Assembly (NCBI RefSeq): GCF_001999245.1
Contig: NZ_CP019630.1
Coordinates: 310,001-374,000 of the forward strand
Direction of reading: 5' to 3'
Origin: Roseibium algicola
GTDB taxonomy: Bacteria > Pseudomonadota > Alphaproteobacteria > Rhizobiales > Stappiaceae
DNA length: 64,000 nucleotides
In this document: positions 1-12,578 of the stretch, in pieces
How positions within the stretch are numbered: the first letter of the stretch is position 1
Layout of the letters: each line of letters starts with the position of its first letter
Position numbers and translations under genes: made by a program
Notes under the pieces: model-generated
What the model saw: the letters and a program-made list of their open reading frames with translations, nothing else
Database searches by the model: none
What the model was told of the DNA's origin: nothing

Positions 1-605
1 TTCACAATGAACGTTGCAAGGTTTCCTTGGTAACGCTTCATCGTGCTTTCCACTGCCGGGCCGAGCGTTCGACCTTCCAGCTCGCCCGCCGTACCGACAT
101 GGTTTTCAGCCAGCTTCAGGAACGTGCTTCGGGACTTCATGGAAGGAGAGGTTAGAAGCTCAAGCCCCGGGTTTAGGCGTACGGCCGCTGTTGCGTTCGC
201 AATCGCCTTGGTCGCACGGCCGCCACCAATCTGCAGTTCTTTTTCCCAATCGACCGTATCAAGATCATCGGTTGCCGCAGAACCGGCACTGCGCAGCTTC
301 CGGACAGCCTTCGCCAATGCGCCGCCTGGAAGCAATAGCGTAGGGCTGGCAACACTGGCGAAAATCTCGGCACCTGTACCGCCCCAACCGGCCGCCTCAA
401 TGGTTTCCCGGTCACGCTTTTCCCGGTCAATATCGGCCTTGATGGCTTCCACGACGGTTGCGTTTTGGGCTTCAAGGAAGCGGTCGGAATGCTCTTCATA
501 GCCCTTCAAGTCGCCGTTGGTGAAAGGGTTATATTCCGGATCAACCCGGAAATATTCCCGCTTGTCGAGGTCAAGAGCTTCCGAGGCGAGCAGCGAGCCG
601 TTCAA
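1..605 (-). pseudogene. Fragment of a phage virion-like protein, 5' part missing, runs off the left edge
   Basis: On the minus strand an open frame of about 200 codons runs from roughly 605 to the window edge with no stop. Early in it is FRVDPEYNPFTNGDLKGYEE; later it is rich in Ala, Lys and Glu, with a hydrophobic patch (ASVASPTLLLPGGALAKAV). This composition is like the large internal virion proteins of podovirus-type phages, but I cannot name the family. No ATG precedes the conserved part. The frame is shifted by one relative to the primase whose 3' end it overlaps. I therefore read it as the downstream remainder of a structural gene brought next to the primase by a deletion. It could instead be an intact gene with an unrecognised start. 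Confidence 0.5.
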
Positions 606-1461
606 TTTCCCAAGGGAGAGCGAGGCCGGAAAGCCCGTTAGCGGTTCTGCATGCCCAGACCGGCAGACCTGAAAGAAGGTGGACGCCGAAGCCTGTTTCT
701 ATCCCCTCGCAAACAGCAATATAACTGCCGTCTTTAGGAGGATGCAGGCGAACAGCACCGCCACCACAGGGGCCAAGGCCCTTTTTAATCTTGCTGCCGT
801 CTTCCGCGCGGAGATTGTCGCCATGCGCATCCAAGTATATGCGCCACGTTCCGACTTGCTGGCCTTCTGCGCCCTGGACGAGCGCGACAAGAGCGGGATG
901 ATATTGCCCTTTCGAGAGGAAGCATTTCGGGTGGAACCGGAGAACACCGGGCAGCTTCCCTTCAAGGCCTTTGACACGCCTACGCAGATAGTCTTCTGCC
1001 ATCGAGCCTTCAATTATTCGGGCCTCGCCCCAAAGTTCCTTGGCGACATCAAGTCGGGCAAGTTCGTCCCGCTCTTCTTCTTCCTGCCTATGCCGGTCCC
1101 GCTCTTCCGCTTCTGCCTGTCGCTTCGCCCAGGCGGCGCGCTGTTCGGGCGTGTATTCGGTGCTCCCGCTGGGGGGAGCTTCCCCGGTCAGCTTTTCGCA
1201 AGCCTGTGCGAAGGTCAGCCCGTCGCAATGCATTACCAAGCCGATGGTGTCACCGCCACCACCGGCACCCCGGCAAACCCACTTGTTTTTAGATGTGTTC
1301 ACCGCAAAGCGATCTTTCCCACCGCAGGCGGGGCACGGGCCGACGTATTCCTTACCCCCGGCAGGCTTCAGCGTTGCGCCGCACTTCTTTGCCGCGTCCA
1401 GAAGCGAAACCTTGTTGGCTCTCAGCTTGTAGTCTGTCCATGCTTGATCTAGGACGCTCAT
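571..1461 (-). pseudogene. Phage P4-type DNA primase, truncated inside the Toprim domain
   Basis: Residues about 15-85 form a zinc-binding primase domain with CPACGGKDRF, WVCRG and GGGGDTIGLV. After an Arg/Glu-rich linker, residues about 140-296 match the P4/DUF7146-type primase core ending in a Toprim segment, AVCEGIETG, where the conserved Glu is present. The protein then stops about 40 residues later (ERLAARLGSS), before the Asp-x-Asp metal motif and without a helicase or C-terminal part. An active enzyme is unlikely. I chose the ATG at 1461 because GAGGTG precedes it at good spacing. It would have made RNA primers for phage replication. Its 3' end overlaps an out-of-frame virion-like fragment, suggesting a deletion joint. 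Confidence 0.75.
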
Positions 1462-1541
1462 GCTGCACCTCGACAATTGCCTGCGCGCGTTAGCTCTGTT
1501 TTTATTCGTCCGTTGCTTAAGTCTTTTTGGAAATTGGATTT

Positions 1542-2684
1542 ATGAAGCGAGACAAATCCCCTCGCCCTAACACTTTGGCAGAACGTAGGGCCCTTAGAGA
1601 AACCAGTACCAACGCCGCGGAAATTGACCCTCTGAGCAAATGGCACCGCAGAGCTCGATGGCTGCGAAATCACCCGTTCGTTGTCATGATGGAAACCGCA
1701 GGTCTTATTGGATTGATTTTTGCGGTTGCGCTCTTCGTTCTTGAACTCCGAGAAAAGCAAGATGAGCGCGTCGCAAGGGCATGGCAATTGCTGACGACAG
1801 CGGCGTCTGGCAACAGTGGAAAGATCCATGCACTTGAGTTTTTGAACGCTCAATACGGATGCTTGCCTGCCGGCTGGGAATTTCCGACCGTTGGTCAATG
1901 CTGGAAGCATCGCACGTCCCTGACGGGCGTCAATCTGTCGTCCACCGGTCTTAAGCAAGGTGTCTATCTCGTCGGTCTCCAGTTGCCCAATGCCGACCTC
2001 GTAAAAGCTGATTTCAGTGGGGCACAATTGGCTGAGGCCAATTTCAAGAATGCTAATTTGCTCTCTGTGGATCTGAGCGGTGCCAATATGAACTCCGCAG
2101 ACCTTTCCGGTGCAAATCTCCATTTTGCAAACCTCAGTGCTGGCGTATATCTCGGCGATGCCACACTCGTTGGTGCCAACCTTCGTTATGCAAACTTGGA
2201 GAATGCGTTCCTGGTGAGTGCAAATTTGAGAAACGCAGTCTTGGCAAATGCAAACCTTGGTAATGCCGAATTGGGTTTTACCAACCTCGAAAATGCCGAC
2301 TTGTCGACCGCTTGGCTTCAAGGCGCGAAATTCGACAGCGCGACACTCGTCTGTGCTGACCTTTCGCGAGCTGATCTCACCAGTGCCAACTTCGGAACAG
2401 CAAAAGACGGCCTCGGCCGGATCTTCACCGCCGCAGACCTTCGCTACGCCAACCTTAGTGGTGCAGACCTGAATGATGCGTTTGTCTCGAGCGAACCAAA
2501 TGAATTGGAGAACCTTACTGGCATCTGGGCGTACGAAGACCTGCCTCCAAAGAACATGCCCCAAATTATCGCGAAGACCATTTCTTACAGACGGGTTGGT
2601 GAAAATTGGGACGCATTCAAGATGCGTATGGCAGAGGAAAGAATGGCTTCTAAGGATCATGCCCCCCCAATAGCCTGTCTTTAA
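1542..2684 (+). CDS. Membrane-anchored pentapeptide-repeat protein, likely prophage cargo
   Basis: The protein is about 380 residues. Residues 1-45 are basic and polar. Residues about 45-68 form one transmembrane helix (FVVMMETAGLIGLIFAVALF). A short charged helix and a Cys-containing stretch follow (QYGCLPAGWEFPTVGQCW). From about residue 130 to 310 there is a long run of A(D/N)LxX pentapeptide repeats, such as ANLRYANLENA and ADLSGANLH, which fold into a right-handed quadrilateral helix. The ATG at 1542 is preferred to a TTG at 1527. It points away from the primase and is flanked by phage genes, so I infer a lysogenic-conversion or superinfection-exclusion gene. The function is unknown; pentapeptide proteins range from gyrase inhibitors to phage-defence proteins. 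Confidence 0.8.
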   Translation: MKRDKSPRPNTLAERRALRETSTNAAEIDPLSKWHRRARWLRNHPFVVMMETAGLIGLIFAVALFVLELREKQDERVARAWQLLTTAASGNSGKIHALEFLNAQYGCLPAGWEFPTVGQCWKHRTSLTGVNLSSTGLKQGVYLVGLQLPNADLVKADFSGAQLAEANFKNANLLSVDLSGANMNSADLSGANLHFANLSAGVYLGDATLVGANLRYANLENAFLVSANLRNAVLANANLGNAELGFTNLENADLSTAWLQGAKFDSATLVCADLSRADLTSANFGTAKDGLGRIFTAADLRYANLSGADLNDAFVSSEPNELENLTGIWAYEDLPPKNMPQIIAKTISYRRVGENWDAFKMRMAEERMASKDHAPPIACL

Positions 2685-4127: not shown

Positions 4128-4376
4128 CTAGGCGGCCGCCATGTTCGCCGGGTGCTCTTCGCCGAGCGTCATGCGGGCAAGTGCCCCATAGTCGACCGCG
4201 GAAACGTCCGTCATTTCACAGGCGACCACGACAGCCGGCCAATACTGAACAGGGATTGAACCGCGGCGTTTCATTTGGCGGGCCGCCTCATATCCGCAGC
4301 CCACCAACTCAGCGAAATGCTTGATTGAGCCGAAGGCTTCAAACAAAGCGTCAATGGTTTTAGGTGTGTCAGCCAT
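4128..4376 (-). CDS. Cro-like phage repressor
   Basis: Starting at the ATG at 4376, the product is 82 residues. Residues about 5-65 form a Cro-type helix-turn-helix: IDALFEAFGSIKHFAELVGC then YEAARQMKRRGSIPVQYWP. It is divergent from the CI-like gene. Operator 1 (4385-4399) lies 8 bp upstream of this ATG. A promoter with TTGCGC and TACGTT 17 bp apart on the minus strand would start transcription almost at the ATG, so a leaderless mRNA is possible. The frame stays open upstream to a TTG at 4403, but that would place coding sequence over the operator. I infer it opens the leftward early operon and represses CI. Confidence 0.7.
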   Translation of the reverse strand: MADTPKTIDALFEAFGSIKHFAELVGCGYEAARQMKRRGSIPVQYWPAVVVACEMTDVSAVDYGALARMTLGEEHPANMAAA

Positions 4377-4384
4377 GATTGAAA

Positions 4385-4399
4385 CGTACATTTCGTACG
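4385..4399. promoter_or_regulatory. Phage operator 1 (CGTAC-N5-GTACG)
   Basis: The perfect inverted repeat CGTAC-ATTTC-GTACG overlaps the predicted -10 of the cro promoter. The same 5-5-5 pattern occurs three more times, and all four sites flank the CI-like gene. I infer it binds CI and Cro. Confidence 0.7.
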
Positions 4400-4410
4400 A
4401 CAAAAGCGCA

Positions 4411-4439
4411 AGAAAAAATCGTACACTTCGGACGATAAT
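4411..4439 (+). promoter_or_regulatory. Maintenance promoter of the CI-like repressor
   Basis: A good -10 box (GATAAT, 4434-4439) lies 20 bp before the repressor ATG, but the -35 region 17 bp upstream (AGAAAA) is poor. This matches maintenance promoters that need help from a bound repressor. Operator 2 sits in the spacer. Confidence 0.5.
4420..4434. promoter_or_regulatory. Phage operator 2 (imperfect CGTAC-N5-GGACG)
   Basis: The sequence is CGTAC-ACTTC-GGACG, one mismatch from the consensus. It touches the GATAAT -10 box (4434-4439) of the CI promoter, as expected for autoregulation. The centre is 35 bp from operator 1. Confidence 0.6.
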
Positions 4440-4458
4440 TTCGTGCGAAACAGTTCAA

Positions 4459-5139
4459 ATGGAACCGAAAGACCGTTTGAAAGCAGCAAGAGAGCGCGCG
4501 GGATATGACTCCCCAACGGAGGCATCGCGCGTGCTTCGCACTATCAACGTCAACACCATCATCAGCAACGAGAATGGCAACAGGCCGATTTCCAAGAAGA
4601 TGGCGCAGGTCTATGCGGAAGCTTTCGGGGTTTCGGCTGGATGGCTTCTTTACGGCGACAGCGGCGAGCCAGAGCAAGAACCAAAGCCGACCAGGCGCCC
4701 AGCCCTACAAATCATCGGCGAGGTGGCTGCAGGCCATTGGCTTGAGAGCGATCTTTTCGAACACGAGAAGACCGAGAATTCCAACCTTGCCGGCGGTGAC
4801 GCCCGATATTTGCCAAGTATGCAATACCTTATGAGAGTCAACGGCGAGAGCCTTAACAAAATCGCCCGGCATGGCGACCTCATCTTGTGCCTGGACTATG
4901 CACAGGCGGGAATTGAGTTGAAGTCGGGTGACTTGGTGGTTGCGGAACGCTCTAGAGACGGCGGCCTGACCTTCGAGCGGACCGCCAAGAGAATTGTTCG
5001 CCACAACGGTGAAATTGAACTCAGGCCGGAGAGTGACGACCCGCGCTTTCAAGAGCCGGTTATCTACAACGAGCACGGCGAAGAGGCTACCGAAGTGCGC
5101 GTAGTCGCTAAGGTTTTGGGCGTGTTTCGGGAGGTGTAG
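4459..5139 (+). CDS. CI/LexA-type phage repressor with S24 peptidase domain
   Basis: 226 residues from the ATG at 4459. Residues about 3-65 form the HTH DNA-binding domain (LKAARERAGYDSPTEASR, then ISNENGNRPISKKMAQVYAE). Residues about 90-225 form the LexA/CI C-terminal domain: IIGEVAAGHW is the self-cleavage site region (Ala-Gly), MRVNGESLNK carries the Ser-equivalent of the usual GDSM motif, and LVVAERSRDGGLTFERTAKR contains the lysine region. It holds the lysogenic state and is probably inactivated by RecA* after DNA damage. Note that GES replaces the common GDS. It sits between two operator pairs and is followed closely by a small membrane gene. Confidence 0.85.
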   Translation: MEPKDRLKAARERAGYDSPTEASRVLRTINVNTIISNENGNRPISKKMAQVYAEAFGVSAGWLLYGDSGEPEQEPKPTRRPALQIIGEVAAGHWLESDLFEHEKTENSNLAGGDARYLPSMQYLMRVNGESLNKIARHGDLILCLDYAQAGIELKSGDLVVAERSRDGGLTFERTAKRIVRHNGEIELRPESDDPRFQEPVIYNEHGEEATEVRVVAKVLGVFREV

Positions 5140-6217: not shown

Positions 6218-6687
6218 ACGGCGCCGTTGAGCGATCCTTTTTCATCAAGGACGAGCGGACAGGTCTTTGGTTCAAGTCCCGACCGGACAACGACGCGGTA
6301 GACGGCTTCTTTGCCGATCTGAAAACCACGTCCAGCATGAGCGAAAGCTTCATTCGGCGGCAGATCAAAGACAACGGCTATTTCATTCAAGCCGGTGGAG
6401 TTCGTCGCGCAGCCCGGGAACTCGATCTGCCCTTTGACAGCTTTTGGAACGTCTACGTTTCAACCGGCGACACCCCCGACACTCAGGCCATTGAACTGGA
6501 TCCGGAAGACCTCGACCTAGGCGAGCGCGTAATCCGTCACGGCCTGGACACCATCGCCGAATGTATGGCGTCCGGCATCTGGCCCGGCGCCCGCCCCTAT
6601 GAGGCCCGCGCCGTTCGCATTGGCGATTGGGACCGCGAAGCTATTGAGCAAGACCTTAAGACCCCCGCATTGGAGCAAGCAGCATGA
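6091..6687 (+). pseudogene. RecE-like/PD-(D/E)XK phage exonuclease, N-terminus missing
   Basis: In frame 1, coding-like sequence begins about 6,091 without a start codon: YCSEWEEAQEKAGKVIVSPD, then DPMVQQGILNGAVERSFF and RPDNDAVDGFFADLKTTSS. The last block is the PD-(D/E)XK catalytic core (Asp and the DLK motif) of the DUF3799/RecE-type 5'-3' exonucleases paired with RecT. About 80-90 N-terminal residues usual in the family are absent. The first ATG (6196) would start just before the core. The gene overlaps recT by ATGA. It may make a shortened protein from 6196, but I think it is inactive. The joint with the preceding gene is discussed in the findings. Confidence 0.65.
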
Positions 6688-7724
6688 ACCAGGCACCAGC
6701 ACCCCAAGACGCGCTTGAATTGGCGGTTCACCACGGACAGTCCGTTTCGATTGACCACGTGAAGGGCGCAAAGCTTGCTCCGCAGTCCCTTGGCGAAGTT
6801 CTGCGCTTCGCTGACATCATGAGCCGGGCGGATATCGCTCTGCCAAAACACCTTCGGAACAATCCGGGCGCCTGTATGGCTGTCGCGCTTCAAGCATTGG
6901 AGTGGGACATGAGCCCGTTTGCGGTCGCGTCCAAGTCCTTTGCGGTCAACGGGCAAATCGCCTATGAGGCTCAGCTCATTGCCGCAGTGGTCAACACGCG
7001 CTCAGGCATTCAAGGGCGGCTTCGCTATGAGTTCGCGGGCGAAGGCGATAGCCTCACCTGCACCTTGCGCGGCACAATCGACGGCGAAGAATACAGCTAC
7101 ACTTCGCCCCCTTTTGGCGCGATCACCACCAAGAATTCACCACTCTGGAAGACAGACCCCCAACAGCAGCTCGGCTATTACTCGGCCCGGGCCTGGGCGC
7201 GCCGCTATACCCCCGAAGTTCTGTTGGGCGTCTACGACAAGGAAGAAGCTGCAAGCTTCCAAGGCGCAGATAATGCCCGCGACGTAACACCGGCCCGTGC
7301 GACCGGCGCGGAACGGCTTGCGGCCGCGAAGCGGGGCCAGGAACAGCCGGAACAGAGCTTTCTACCTCAAGAAGGCTTCAACCTCGATCACGTCAACGCA
7401 ACTACCGCACAGGCTGCGGCTCAACAGGACAAGCCGGATCACAGCGACAACACCCGCACGCTCGACCTTGCGCCCGTAGACAACGCGCCATTGCATCATG
7501 AAAGCGAGAACCCAGCACCGGCCGAGAAAGTCCCGGCGGAACAGCGCGCAACCGACCCGCTGGCGTCCTTCAAGGCTGAGTTGTCCAAAACCCAGACGCT
7601 GGAAGCTGTCGACGCGGTAAAGGCTGACTTTGCCGCAGGCCTTAATCAGCTTCGCCCCGAGGACAAGAAACAAGCTCGCTTGGCGATCAGTGAGCGGAAA
7701 GAGCAGATCGAGGCGGGCAAATGA
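6684..7724 (+). CDS. recT: RecT-family single-strand annealing protein
   Basis: 346 residues. Residues about 25-195 form the RecT core: LAPQSLGEVLRFADIMSRAD, NPGACMAVALQALEWDMSPF, SKSFAVNGQIAYEAQLIAAV and YYSARAWARRYTPEVLLGVY. It binds single-stranded DNA and anneals homologous strands during phage recombination, working with the exonuclease just upstream. The remaining 150 residues are low-complexity (Ala, Glu, Pro, Asn) and end in a short charged helix (KADFAAGLNQLRPEDKKQAR), possibly a contact for SSB or the exonuclease. The ATGA overlaps on both sides show translational coupling. The gene looks intact although its partner is truncated. Confidence 0.85.
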   Translation: MNQAPAPQDALELAVHHGQSVSIDHVKGAKLAPQSLGEVLRFADIMSRADIALPKHLRNNPGACMAVALQALEWDMSPFAVASKSFAVNGQIAYEAQLIAAVVNTRSGIQGRLRYEFAGEGDSLTCTLRGTIDGEEYSYTSPPFGAITTKNSPLWKTDPQQQLGYYSARAWARRYTPEVLLGVYDKEEAASFQGADNARDVTPARATGAERLAAAKRGQEQPEQSFLPQEGFNLDHVNATTAQAAAQQDKPDHSDNTRTLDLAPVDNAPLHHESENPAPAEKVPAEQRATDPLASFKAELSKTQTLEAVDAVKADFAAGLNQLRPEDKKQARLAISERKEQIEAGK

Positions 7725-9870: not shown

Positions 9871-10274
9871 TGAACCTTCCAGATGGATGGAATGACGATA
9901 CGCCCATAACGCTTTCCGAAGCGTGCAAGGTGCTTTTTCGGAACACCATAAAACCTGCAACTTTGAAGGCAGAGGCGGAACGTGGAAAACTTGTGCTGGA
10001 AAAAATCGGCCGCTCGTATTTCACTACGCCTAAGGCAATTCGTGAAATGAGAGAGCAATGCCGCGTCCAAGAAAAGCTCCAAGGCTCTGGTTCCGCAAAG
10101 ACAAAGGCGGTGGCGGACAATGGATCATCCTCGACGGGTCAAAACAAACCCGCACAGGCTGCACTCTTGAAGACACTCGAGGGGCTGAGCAAAGGCTGCA
10201 GGAATACCTTGCCGAAAAACACCAACCGACCAACAGCCTCGATCCACGAATTATCCCGGTCGCCGACGCGCTGA
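9870..10274 (+). CDS. xis: Excisionase-like HTH protein
   Basis: 134 residues. Residues about 11-62 form an excisionase/MerR-like winged helix: ITLSEACKVLFRNTIKPATL, AERGKLVLEKIGRSYFTT. Such proteins bend att DNA and bias the integrase toward excision. The gene directly precedes the integrase and overlaps it by 217 bases in another frame. The tail over the overlap is Ser/Thr/Gly-rich and likely disordered. I have seen the same kind of tail in related rhizobial elements, so it seems a real dual-coding stretch. The alternative is a shorter protein after mutation. Confidence 0.65.
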   Translation: MNLPDGWNDDTPITLSEACKVLFRNTIKPATLKAEAERGKLVLEKIGRSYFTTPKAIREMREQCRVQEKLQGSGSAKTKAVADNGSSSTGQNKPAQAALLKTLEGLSKGCRNTLPKNTNRPTASIHELSRSPTR

Positions 10275-11134
10275 ATTTCTACGCCACACACCACATTCCA
10301 ACGCTAGCCAACCCCAGGAACGAAGCGACGATACTCAAGGCCCTGGTACCATTCTGGGGTGAGCTCAATATCGGCGACGTCGCCCGATCGAACAGCAAAC
10401 GCTACGCGACATTGCGCTACTCTCAGGGCGTTAAGCCAGGCACCGTTCGCAGGGAATTGAAGGCGCTTCAAAGCGCCCTCAATATGTACACCGAAGACCG
10501 AGAAATACCGTTCGTGTGTCGACTGGAGATGCCTAAAGCTGGTGAGAGTCGTTTGCGCTGGCTCACTCGAAACGAGGCCGCCGCGTTCGTGCACGCGGCC
10601 CGCAGACGTGGCAATCACCACGTTGCCCGGATCATCCTTATAGGGATCTACACCGGCACACGGATTGACGCCATAAAGCGCATGCAATGGCACCCCAACC
10701 CGGCAAGTGGATATTTCGACCTAAAGCAAGGCGTGATGTACCGGAAAGGTTGGGAAGAAAGCAGCACGACGAAACGTCGGCCAAGTGTTCATATTCCTGA
10801 CCGGCTACTACCTCACCTAAAACGCTGGAAGACGTTGGACAGGAACCTGCCATGGGTCATCCATTACGATGGCGGATCTGTCGTTTCTGTGAAACGCGCG
10901 TGGCGGAAAAGCCGAGAAGACGCCCAATTGGGGCTCGACGTTATCCCTCATACCCTGCGCCACACGGCTGCAAGTTGGGGGATCCAAAACGTCCAAACAA
11001 CGCAAGAATTGCAATCACTGGCCGACTTCCTGGGGATGTCACTGAAAATGCTGCTGGAGGTCTATGGGCACCAGAACCCGGTGCATCAGAAATCTGCCTC
11101 TTCTGCGATCAGTAAACGACCAGGAGCAATATGA
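10058..11134 (+). CDS. int: Tyrosine-recombinase integrase
   Basis: 358 residues. An N-terminal arm-binding part (about 1-65) is followed by a core-binding SAM-like domain (about 70-160, VADALNFYATHH to YTEDREIPF) and the catalytic domain. There, TGTRID has the first Arg, TTKRRPSVHIP gives the beta-hairpin Lys, IPHTLRHTAASW has the His-x-x-Arg, and YGHQNPVHQ has the second His. No Tyr is found after that His, where the nucleophile usually lies; the only near one is in VYGH. It would join phage and tRNA-Pro att sites. The start is in an out-of-phase overlap with xis. Confidence 0.8.
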   Translation: MPRPRKAPRLWFRKDKGGGGQWIILDGSKQTRTGCTLEDTRGAEQRLQEYLAEKHQPTNSLDPRIIPVADALNFYATHHIPTLANPRNEATILKALVPFWGELNIGDVARSNSKRYATLRYSQGVKPGTVRRELKALQSALNMYTEDREIPFVCRLEMPKAGESRLRWLTRNEAAAFVHAARRRGNHHVARIILIGIYTGTRIDAIKRMQWHPNPASGYFDLKQGVMYRKGWEESSTTKRRPSVHIPDRLLPHLKRWKTLDRNLPWVIHYDGGSVVSVKRAWRKSREDAQLGLDVIPHTLRHTAASWGIQNVQTTQELQSLADFLGMSLKMLLEVYGHQNPVHQKSASSAISKRPGAI

Positions 11135-11170
11135 CGGGTACGATATAGCTTTCAGAAGGCATAGGAACAG

Positions 11171-12103
11171 ATGACCGAGACTGAAACGATCATTGAACGG
11201 ATACAAAGAGAGAAAAAAGAGCGTGCTGCCGCACTGCGAGCACGACATGAGTCAGCACCTTACCCGCCTGCAGTGTCGTCACTTTGCCTCAACCAAACGC
11301 TTTATACTCCGATCCAATTAAATCCAGAACGCGACGACAAGTTCCTTTACTCTCTAAAGTTCGAGAAGCAGCAGTTTGATGCGCACTGCGTCTACTGCGG
11401 CAAGCAATCAACTTTTAGAACATTAACCGACCGCATGCCTTCTGACGTCGCAGCAGAAAAAGCGAGAGTGGACGCATTCAATCGGCCAGCGACGGACCGA
11501 TTGAAGCGCCTCAATTTGGCAGACGGCCAGTTTGCGCTGCATTTGGGGTGCTCTAGGCATCCTGTTCACCTGTATAGCTATTTCTTCGCTTACAACGAGA
11601 AAGAGGGTGTTCTAGAAAAAATTGGACAAACACCATCACTTGAAGATGTCGCTGGGGCAGATATAGAGCGCTACCGAAAGATACTTGGCGACGATTTTGC
11701 GGAGTTGCGCAGGGCCACTGGCTTATTTGCTCACGGCATCGGTATCGGCTCGTTTGTCTATCTTCGACGCATTTTTGAGAACCTCGTTGAATCCGCGAGA
11801 TCAGCGGCTGACCCAGAGGGGCAACGTGAGACAGAGTTCATGCGGATGCGAATGGCGGAGCGGATAAATGCACTCGCAACATACCTTCCGCCAGCGCTAG
11901 TCAAGTACAAGGATACCTATGGAATACTTTCAAAGGGCCTGCATGAGCTGACAGAGGATGATTGCAAACGTTACTTTCCTGTGGTGCGTGCCGCCGTGAT
12001 AATGATGCTGGAACAGAGGTATGAAGCTGATCAAAAAGCGAAGGTGGAGGCTGAGCTAGATCGCGCCGTCGCAGTCATCGCAGCGGAAACCAAGGACGCA
12101 TAG
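11171..12103 (+). CDS. Uncharacterised cargo protein: Cys-rich finger and DUF4145/HEPN-like C-terminus
   Basis: 310 residues. After a charged N-terminal helix, residues about 70-140 contain HCVYCGKQSTF and LHLGCSRHPVHLYSYFF, a Cys2-Cys/His treble-clef-like pattern. Residues about 175-230 include GLFAHGIGIGSFVYLRRIFE, and residues about 255-285 read KYKDTYGILSKGLHELTEDD. This last pattern is like DUF4145-type helical domains, related to HEPN, which occur in abortive-infection and restriction neighbours. I recall relatives wrongly labelled short-chain dehydrogenase. It lies alone between the integrase and the att site, a usual place for cargo and defence genes. Its codon use is lower in GC than its neighbours. 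A defence role is my inference, and no catalytic motif is certain. Confidence 0.7.
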   Translation: MTETETIIERIQREKKERAAALRARHESAPYPPAVSSLCLNQTLYTPIQLNPERDDKFLYSLKFEKQQFDAHCVYCGKQSTFRTLTDRMPSDVAAEKARVDAFNRPATDRLKRLNLADGQFALHLGCSRHPVHLYSYFFAYNEKEGVLEKIGQTPSLEDVAGADIERYRKILGDDFAELRRATGLFAHGIGIGSFVYLRRIFENLVESARSAADPEGQRETEFMRMRMAERINALATYLPPALVKYKDTYGILSKGLHELTEDDCKRYFPVVRAAVIMMLEQRYEADQKAKVEAELDRAVAVIAAETKDA

Positions 12104-12159: not shown

Positions 12160-12238
12160 CGCGAACAGATCGGAACATTTATAGAACTTCTGAATACAAA
12201 AACTGCAGTATTCTGCCGTTTCTAACCAAGCCCCACCC

Positions 12239-12284
12239 ACTGGGGGTGAAGGGGTCGTCGGTTCAAATCCGGCCTGCCCGACCA
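12239..12284 (+). other. Right attachment site: 3' part of tRNA-Pro(GGG)
   Basis: From about 12,239 the sequence reads as the anticodon loop (CTGGGGG, anticodon GGG at 12,242-12,244), the 3' anticodon stem, the variable region, the T arm (GTCGG-TTCAAAT-CCGGC), the acceptor strand CTGCCCG and ACCA. The 5' half of a tRNA is absent: bases before 12,238 do not pair. This is the duplicated target piece left when a phage inserts at the 3' end of tRNA-Pro. The whole tRNA gene should be left of the window. Confidence 0.85.
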
Positions 12285-12578
12285 ACACAAACTTCCCCAA
12301 ATATTTTGCAGATTTTGAACGAGTATGCGGCTGGAACTCCATCCAGCGCCGCATTGCGTTTGCCGTTCAGCATTCCAACGTTTCACCCAGAAGTATCACA
12401 GTCTGCCGTTTTCGCTTCCCGCAGTTGCTTGCCGTCGGATGCACGCTATGCGTAAACTTACCTACCGTGACAACGTATGGCAGCTTGCGGCCACGGCACG
12501 GAACTGGCACCTGATTATGCTGTATTCCGAGTAATCATAGCTACCAATGCGTATTCGAATATTCCGAGTATTTTTTTG

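Follow-up and report, generated by a model that had tools for sequence, protein, structure and literature searches.

The cargo gene and its integrated element

The window, the whole 64,000-nucleotide stretch of the Roseibium algicola genome analyzed here, contains an ORF of 310 codons encoding a 310-aa protein, together with genes of the prophage-like element that carries it (Table 1). The ATG of this ORF lies 36 nt past the end of the integrase gene, on the same strand. A 49- to 50-bp att repeat is present in three genome copies, at C1:276954-277003, C1:305985-306033, and C1:322238 (the attR of the window), the first of which lies in an intact tRNA-Pro(GGG) gene (276924-277000). The three copies therefore point to two elements integrated in tandem at tRNA-Pro(GGG). 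These prophage-like elements span C1:276924-322287, and each has its own tyrosine integrase near its right att copy (L086:11882-12856 and the integrase of the window). The second element is about 16.3 kb long, and the ORF is its last gene, standing alone between the integrase and attR. In genome G002 of the same genus, an intact tRNA-Pro(GGG) is followed directly by the right flank of the window (query positions 9 to 771, 72% identity), and this locus is an empty site. Within the genus, 1 of 45 genomes carries a member of the gene family, this genome being included in the count. The att repeats, the empty site, and this rarity bear out the initial annotation, which had described a cargo gene alone between an integrase and an att site, and they establish both its cargo position and its mobility.

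TABLE 1 Features of the cargo gene, its product, and the surrounding element (window coordinates)
Feature	Position	Strand	Description or basis
CI-like repressor of the element	4321..5139	+	S24 peptidase; Pfam
RecT-like annealing protein of the element	6684..7724	+	PHROGs
Tyrosine integrase of the same element	10058..11134	+	358 aa; PF00589 at 1.9e-6, narrowly passing the cut-off
AGGAA, ribosome-binding-site-like	11163..11167	+	4 to 8 bases 5' of the cargo-gene ATG; by sequence
Cargo gene	11171..12103	+	N-terminal helices, zinc-ribbon-like beta unit, HEPN/DUF4145-like helical domain
Zinc-ribbon-like beta unit, residues 68-154	11372..11632	+	AF2 model and alignment
Predicted finger: C73 and C76; C127; H133	11387-11398; 11549-11551; 11567-11569	+	Alignment
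Helical domain resembling DUF4145/HEPN, residues 157-309	11639..12097	+	AF2 model, profile comparison
YLRRIFE, residues 197-203	11759..11779	+	R199 and E203 in 119/119 members, R200 in 118/119
ILSKGLH, residues 252-258	11924..11944	+	S254 and H258 in 119/119 members; opposite DUF4145 RxLGNxAAH by eye
attR, copy of the tRNA-Pro(GGG) 3' end	12238..12287	+	Genome repeat search

Ten ORFs, nine of them from the second element and representing part of its ORFs, were scanned against PHROGs. They include RecT-like, RuvC-like, and CII-like proteins and an HNH protein; among the remaining ORFs, one matched an unknown family weakly and one had no match, and no portal, terminase, or capsid was found among the ten. 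The primase match (window 571-1476, reverse strand) covers just positions 20 to 285 of the 667 in the profile, and next comes a 734-aa protein (L086:15401-17605, reverse strand) with a weak tape-measure match, both being signs that part of the prophage was deleted, and the second element looks like a prophage remnant. A 385-aa pentapeptide-repeat-like protein, recognized by eye and matching PHROGs without names, is encoded at window 1527-2684 (forward strand), on the strand opposite to the surrounding resolvase and primase genes, and this gene may be further cargo of the second element.

A search of 5.8 billion protein sequences returned 1492 homologs of the window protein at an E value of ≤1e-3 (120 listed), and the nearest other protein among the matches listed is 80% identical over 99% of the length, which establishes that the protein is real and conserved. 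No Pfam match above the cut-off and no NCBIfam match were obtained, none of the PADLOC defense models matched at an E value of ≤10, and the sole significant PHROGs match is phrog_25239 (residues 37 to 301, E value of 3.7e-8), a profile without a functional description. An ordinary metabolic enzyme is unsupported by Pfam, NCBIfam, or PDB sequence matches. A GAD-like match (PF08887, residues 146 to 196) was rejected, as it is below the cut-off, with an E value of 0.016, and the window protein is the sole one of the 77 members to show it, and a likeness to the eL42/L44e zinc ribbon (E value of 0.22) is confined to the finger. A promoter scan around the gene found 0 sites versus 1.9 expected by chance, and a terminator scan found 2 candidate sites, which lie on the opposite strand, versus 3.3 expected, so that neither scan rose above chance. 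At 51.0%, the GC content of the cargo gene is lower than that of int (55.5%) and that of recT (60.3%). Its base composition, which the initial annotation took to differ from that of the phage genes, does stand apart from the region at 20 to 63 kb, where 0 of 430 segments of the same size have a GC content as low; inside the element, however, 15 of 154 such segments equal it or fall below it, and the pentapeptide-repeat-like gene has a GC content of 51.6%.

Protein architecture and comparison with DUF4145/HEPN proteins

The AF2 model of the window protein, built from 97 sequences (pLDDT of 89.7, pTM of 0.79), consists of N-terminal helices, beta strands at residues 68 to 154, and helices at residues 157 to 309, with a final helix of 48 residues. 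Conservation was assessed in an alignment of 77 members (A3), which leaves out 4 of the 80 genome loci (L002, L011, L029, and L041), whose called ORFs are short, and in a larger set of 119 rows, 116 of which differ from one another. The 119-row counts and the tree include 33 of the 44 viral loci, namely, those with an ORF of ≥240 aa, plus 9 proteins from the 120 listed. C73, C76, C127, and H133 form a predicted zinc finger, in the stretch (residues about 70 to 140) where a Cys-rich finger had first been noted. The window protein has all four Cys/His ligands; among the 77 aligned relatives, C127 is kept in 77, C73 and C76 in 66 each, and H133 in 63, the CxxC and C127 occur together in 66, and C127 is also found in 119/119 of the larger alignment. 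In addition to C127, the invariant columns of the 77 members include K150, G152, G191, G193, Y197, R199, R200, E203, P240, S254, and H258. The CxxC is lost in 13 of the 119 members, 11 of which make up one clade (SH-aLRT of 90) in a quick tree without bootstrap, with two elsewhere. In alignment A3, this finger-less clade mostly has a YN-type sequence in place of the CxxC and keeps C127.

The family was compared with zinc-ribbon DUF4145 proteins (PF13643, HEPN clan), represented by 29 sequences, one such protein found in the genus together with 28 relatives. An hhalign comparison gave a collinear alignment from the CxxC to S254 over 153 columns, with a probability of 18% (P = 0.0014), rising to 28% when the template was trimmed or the 119-row profile was used (alignments of 153 to 155 columns). 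The real score of 32.3 was attained by 0 of 100 column shuffles (maximum, 25.3) and 0 of 100 ten-column block shuffles (maximum, 30.2), and the reversed template scored 16.9; with the 119-row profile, blocks of 1, 10, and 20 columns gave 0/150, 0/150, and 2/150 shuffles, respectively, that attained the real score. Other comparisons were weak, with probabilities of 0.4% (P = 0.15, same alignment path) for the closer-relative profile A2, 1.1% and 0.6% for the C-terminal domains alone, 9.5% for the finger parts alone, and 1.3% for a mixed five-sequence DUF4145 set. PF13643 did not match the window protein at an E value of ≤10, and no HEPN or DUF4145 model is among the 15 Pfam families matched by the 77 members at an E value of ≤0.07; at an E value of ≤10, the members matched 48 families, of which 25 were listed.

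The two groups share the order of their parts and their predicted secondary structure. When the AF2 secondary structures are compared by eye, the order of zinc ribbon and helices agrees, the DUF4145 model running from a beta ribbon through an R..E helix and a short RI..L helix to a helix ending near the His. The RR..LE helix of DUF4145 corresponds to the LRRIFE of the family, the RI..L helix and the long last helix (46 residues in the DUF4145 model versus 48 in the window protein) are common to both, and the DUF4145 motif helix RxLGNxAAH is matched to the family YxILSxGxH past S254. Since the local hhalign alignment ends before H258, this pairing of the two His residues was made by eye. The family is set apart by an additional helix that precedes the RR helix and by its finger, which is CxxC-C-H compared with CxxC-CxxxxC in DUF4145. 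It also differs at the residue 8 positions before the His, which is Arg in 29/29 of the DUF4145 set versus 0/77 family members, where it is Tyr (76) or Phe (1). No Arg is found at H-4 to H-10 in the 77 members, and the HEPN Rx4-6H motif (R at H-5 to H-7) occurs in 0/77, with the His present in 77/77; the DUF4145 comparison set (R-x7-H) likewise falls outside the strict Rx4-6H spacing. The residue opposite the HEPN Arg is Gly/Ser251 by the profile alignment and Tyr250 when counted back from the His.

The profiles thus suggest a modest resemblance of the window protein to zinc-ribbon DUF4145 proteins. The DUF4145/HEPN-like tail proposed in the initial annotation retains its collinear profile match and its order of secondary structure elements, but the other comparisons are weak, no HEPN or DUF4145 Pfam model matches, and the HEPN Arg is absent. 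The protein should not be filed as a DUF4145/HEPN member, because it lies below the Pfam cut-off and lacks the Arg-His motif, although its way of working may well be that of one. The excerpted text of PMC3710099 describes HEPN families, c2405 and Parep1/8, that keep the His and lack the Arg of Rx4-6H, and for Parep1/8 it proposes other conserved basic residues as stand-ins for the Arg. By description, the window family is like these in keeping the His without the Arg. Because the HEPN-motif Arg is replaced, the active site proposed here would consist of the invariant H258 with R199/R200, E203, and S254, in which R199/R200 are candidates for the basic residues standing in for the Arg.

The loss of the Arg in 77/77 members also bears on the strongest alternative to a defense factor, namely, a noncatalytic nucleic-acid binder whose zinc ribbon and HEPN-like domain regulate prophage or host genes (e.g., in superinfection immunity or transcription) without cutting. 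The excerpts of PMC3710099 take motif-less HEPN domains to be probably noncatalytic RNA binders, and in two viral contigs (L097 and L134), the relative lies, by eye, directly behind a CI-type repressor like that of the window element; the L134 relative itself appears to be divided between two ORFs (L134:9944-10480 and the one that follows). However, the same excerpts expect inactive HEPN domains to have no conserved charged or polar residues at all, and five polar or charged residues are invariant in the 119 members, suggesting more than a scaffold. The membership of relatives in restriction-modification (R-M) operons is also hard to reconcile with prophage regulation, and we consider such a binder rather unlikely.

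Distribution and gene neighborhoods of the family

Whereas the initial annotation named a uniform spread in core genomes as evidence against its reading, the family is sporadic, occurring in 2 of 87 genomes of the bacterial family and 3 of 385 genomes of the class, its own genome included in both. A search of genome contigs confirmed 165 relatives, and the locus analyses were carried out on the best 80 of the 165. Judged by record title, these relatives are spread over Proteobacteria, Firmicutes, Bacteroidetes, Chloroflexi, Patescibacteria, and others, and 44 loci with relatives were found on IMG/VR viral contigs. Among 72,556 plasmid records, the window protein matches one; this relative (L140:4956-6334) is annotated as a short-chain dehydrogenase, apparently a wrong name, and is convergent with a gene annotated as super-infection exclusion protein B (SieB). 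The Rhizobium rhizophilum relative (L002:9974-10872) lies in two reading frames next to ordinary chromosomal genes and is apparently a broken copy.

Neighboring genes were called by a script and the calls may contain errors, above all in high-GC contigs. At no fewer than 7 of the 80 genome loci, the family gene adjoins an R-M gene on the same strand, within 35 bp at six of them. It lies between an hsdM-like gene and hsdS (L058), between mod and res of a type III system (L073), and between a helicase and a methylase gene (L080), and it neighbors genes for a C5 methylase (L081), an MmeI-like protein (L063), an N6/N4 methylase (L033), and, 153 bp away, a methylase-specificity protein (L071). All ten R-M neighbor proteins tested carry methylase, specificity, or restriction-helicase domains in Pfam. 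Methylase motifs are found in 8 of 209 genes within two places versus 6 of 413 genes five or more places off (P = 0.08), or in 7 of 209 (P = 0.14) when L046, which starts like a serine recombinase, is left out; for adjacent genes alone, a narrowing chosen afterwards, the count is 7 of 111 (P = 0.009). The neighborhood survey suggested in the initial annotation brought out R-M genes beside the family, but the overall excess of methylases is not significant (P values of 0.08 to 0.14). R-M genes adjoin 5 of 11 finger-less members versus 2 of 66 finger-bearing members (Fisher, 4e-4), the five being in one clade and therefore not independent.

These seven loci and the excess among finger-less members raise the possibility of an R-M companion. 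It would either modulate the R-M enzyme or stand guard over it, killing or arresting the cell once that enzyme is blocked or lost, with solo prophage copies relying on a host-encoded partner. In the excerpts of PMC3710099, DUF4145 is reported in an operon with R-M genes, and PrrI, a type Ic R-M system, has PrrC as its HEPN-type companion gene; unlike PrrC, which contains an ABC NTPase domain, the window family gave no NTPase domain in Pfam. Against such a role, R-M genes adjoin at 7 of 80 loci only, the near-versus-far count is as given above, the five finger-less cases represent one clade, and no R-M gene is among the nine ORFs of the window element scanned with PHROGs; a companion function is improbable.

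Other neighbors identified by Pfam include TIR (L038), Schlafen-AlbA (L037), and phage-type integrase (L044) proteins, and at L034, a serine recombinase precedes and an HNH-CTD11 protein follows the family gene. CTD11 has been described from ABC-three-component systems. A block of serine recombinase, family gene, HNH-CTD11 protein, small ORF, and second large ORF is common to two Firmicutes (L034:8334-11763 and L047:597-4022). Names given by eye to a SIR2-like neighbor (L066) and to a neighbor at L022 were dropped, as Pfam gave no family, and for an integrase-like neighbor at L023, Pfam gave only DUF6538. A near set of all 133 adjacent genes of ≥80 aa matched 269 PADLOC models, and a far set matched 122; the far set took 133 of the 435 genes at a distance of six or more places, with no more than 3 from any locus. 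These counts are of models (25 listed) and not of proteins, so no near-gene enrichment is claimed.

The viral contigs permit a further alternative, a counter-defense or host-takeover protein made by the phage in lytic growth. Relatives on 44 viral contigs agree with it, but three family members used as queries had no match in 50,697 deposited phage records, and other relatives belong to R-M operons of bacteria or are plasmid-borne. In viral contigs, moreover, the gene is often on the strand opposite to the surrounding genes, and opposite-strand genes flank it on both sides at 17 of 39 usable viral loci versus 44 of 827 for all genes, although the 17 cases include very similar phages that inflate the pattern. 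No clear pattern of this kind emerges at the genome loci (10 of 65 usable loci versus 89 of 1031, P = 0.06). Such flanks fit what is expected of independently expressed cargo, and a lytic-growth protein is very improbable. Least probable is an accessory protein that helps the integrase in integration or excision and is encoded beside it, as the position 36 nt past int in the same orientation, the phage-type integrase neighbor at L044, and a Resolvase domain in 5 of 133 immediate neighbors might suggest, since relatives occur inside R-M operons and, by eye, between terminase and portal (viral contigs L103, L111, and L125).

A proposed role in defense

The explanation that we favor, tentatively and without regarding it as the probable one, is that the cargo gene encodes a divergent DUF4145/HEPN-like defense factor with an altered active site, expressed in the lysogen. 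It is favored by the sporadic presence of the family in the genus, bacterial family, and class and its spread over many phyla; against it, the far-gene controls likewise contain PADLOC matches. Defense is the most likely role of the cargo protein, and a one-gene defense system is plausible, judging by the R-M operon, TIR, Schlafen-AlbA, and SieB neighbors. The gene would be a lysogenic-conversion (moron) gene whose product shields the lysogen from other phages. The zinc-ribbon unit would be the sensing or nucleic-acid-binding part, and the C-terminal helical domain would attack or bind RNA, with any catalysis, such as RNA cleavage, presumably carried out by the residues around H258.

Two anti-phage proteins are comparable in part. 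BxaP, which is BREX associated and contains a DUF4145-like part, is reported to be anti-phage in the excerpts of PMC10799925, in which T4 was tested; its DUF4145 part is N-terminal and a weak HEAT-like match is C-terminal, unlike the window protein. Tha of Staphylococcus aureus is a prophage-encoded HEPN anti-phage factor, according to the excerpts of PMC11087260, and its likeness to the window protein is one of description, a HEPN-type factor carried by a prophage compared with a HEPN-like candidate; activation by tail proteins is not known for the window protein. Among the matches listed in a search of full-text literature, consisting mostly of non-subscription papers, no description of the window-protein family was found.

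A broader form of the defense reading would see a phylum-spanning family of HEPN-like effectors in which the Arg is supplied from the YLRRIFE helix, the zinc-finger form acts as a solo prophage defense, and the finger-less clade, placed within restriction operons of types I, II, and III, acts as a second line of defense; taken as a whole, this is rather unlikely. As no Pfam, NCBIfam, or PADLOC model matches the window protein above the cut-off, such proteins are listed as hypothetical or are mislabeled. If the proposed role in cell defense is true, a common single-gene system carried by prophages would be added to those known. The family could in that case also be used to ask whether HEPN-type RNases can function when the canonical Arg is missing, and the finger-less clade in R-M operons, if defensive, would couple restriction to a suicide module.
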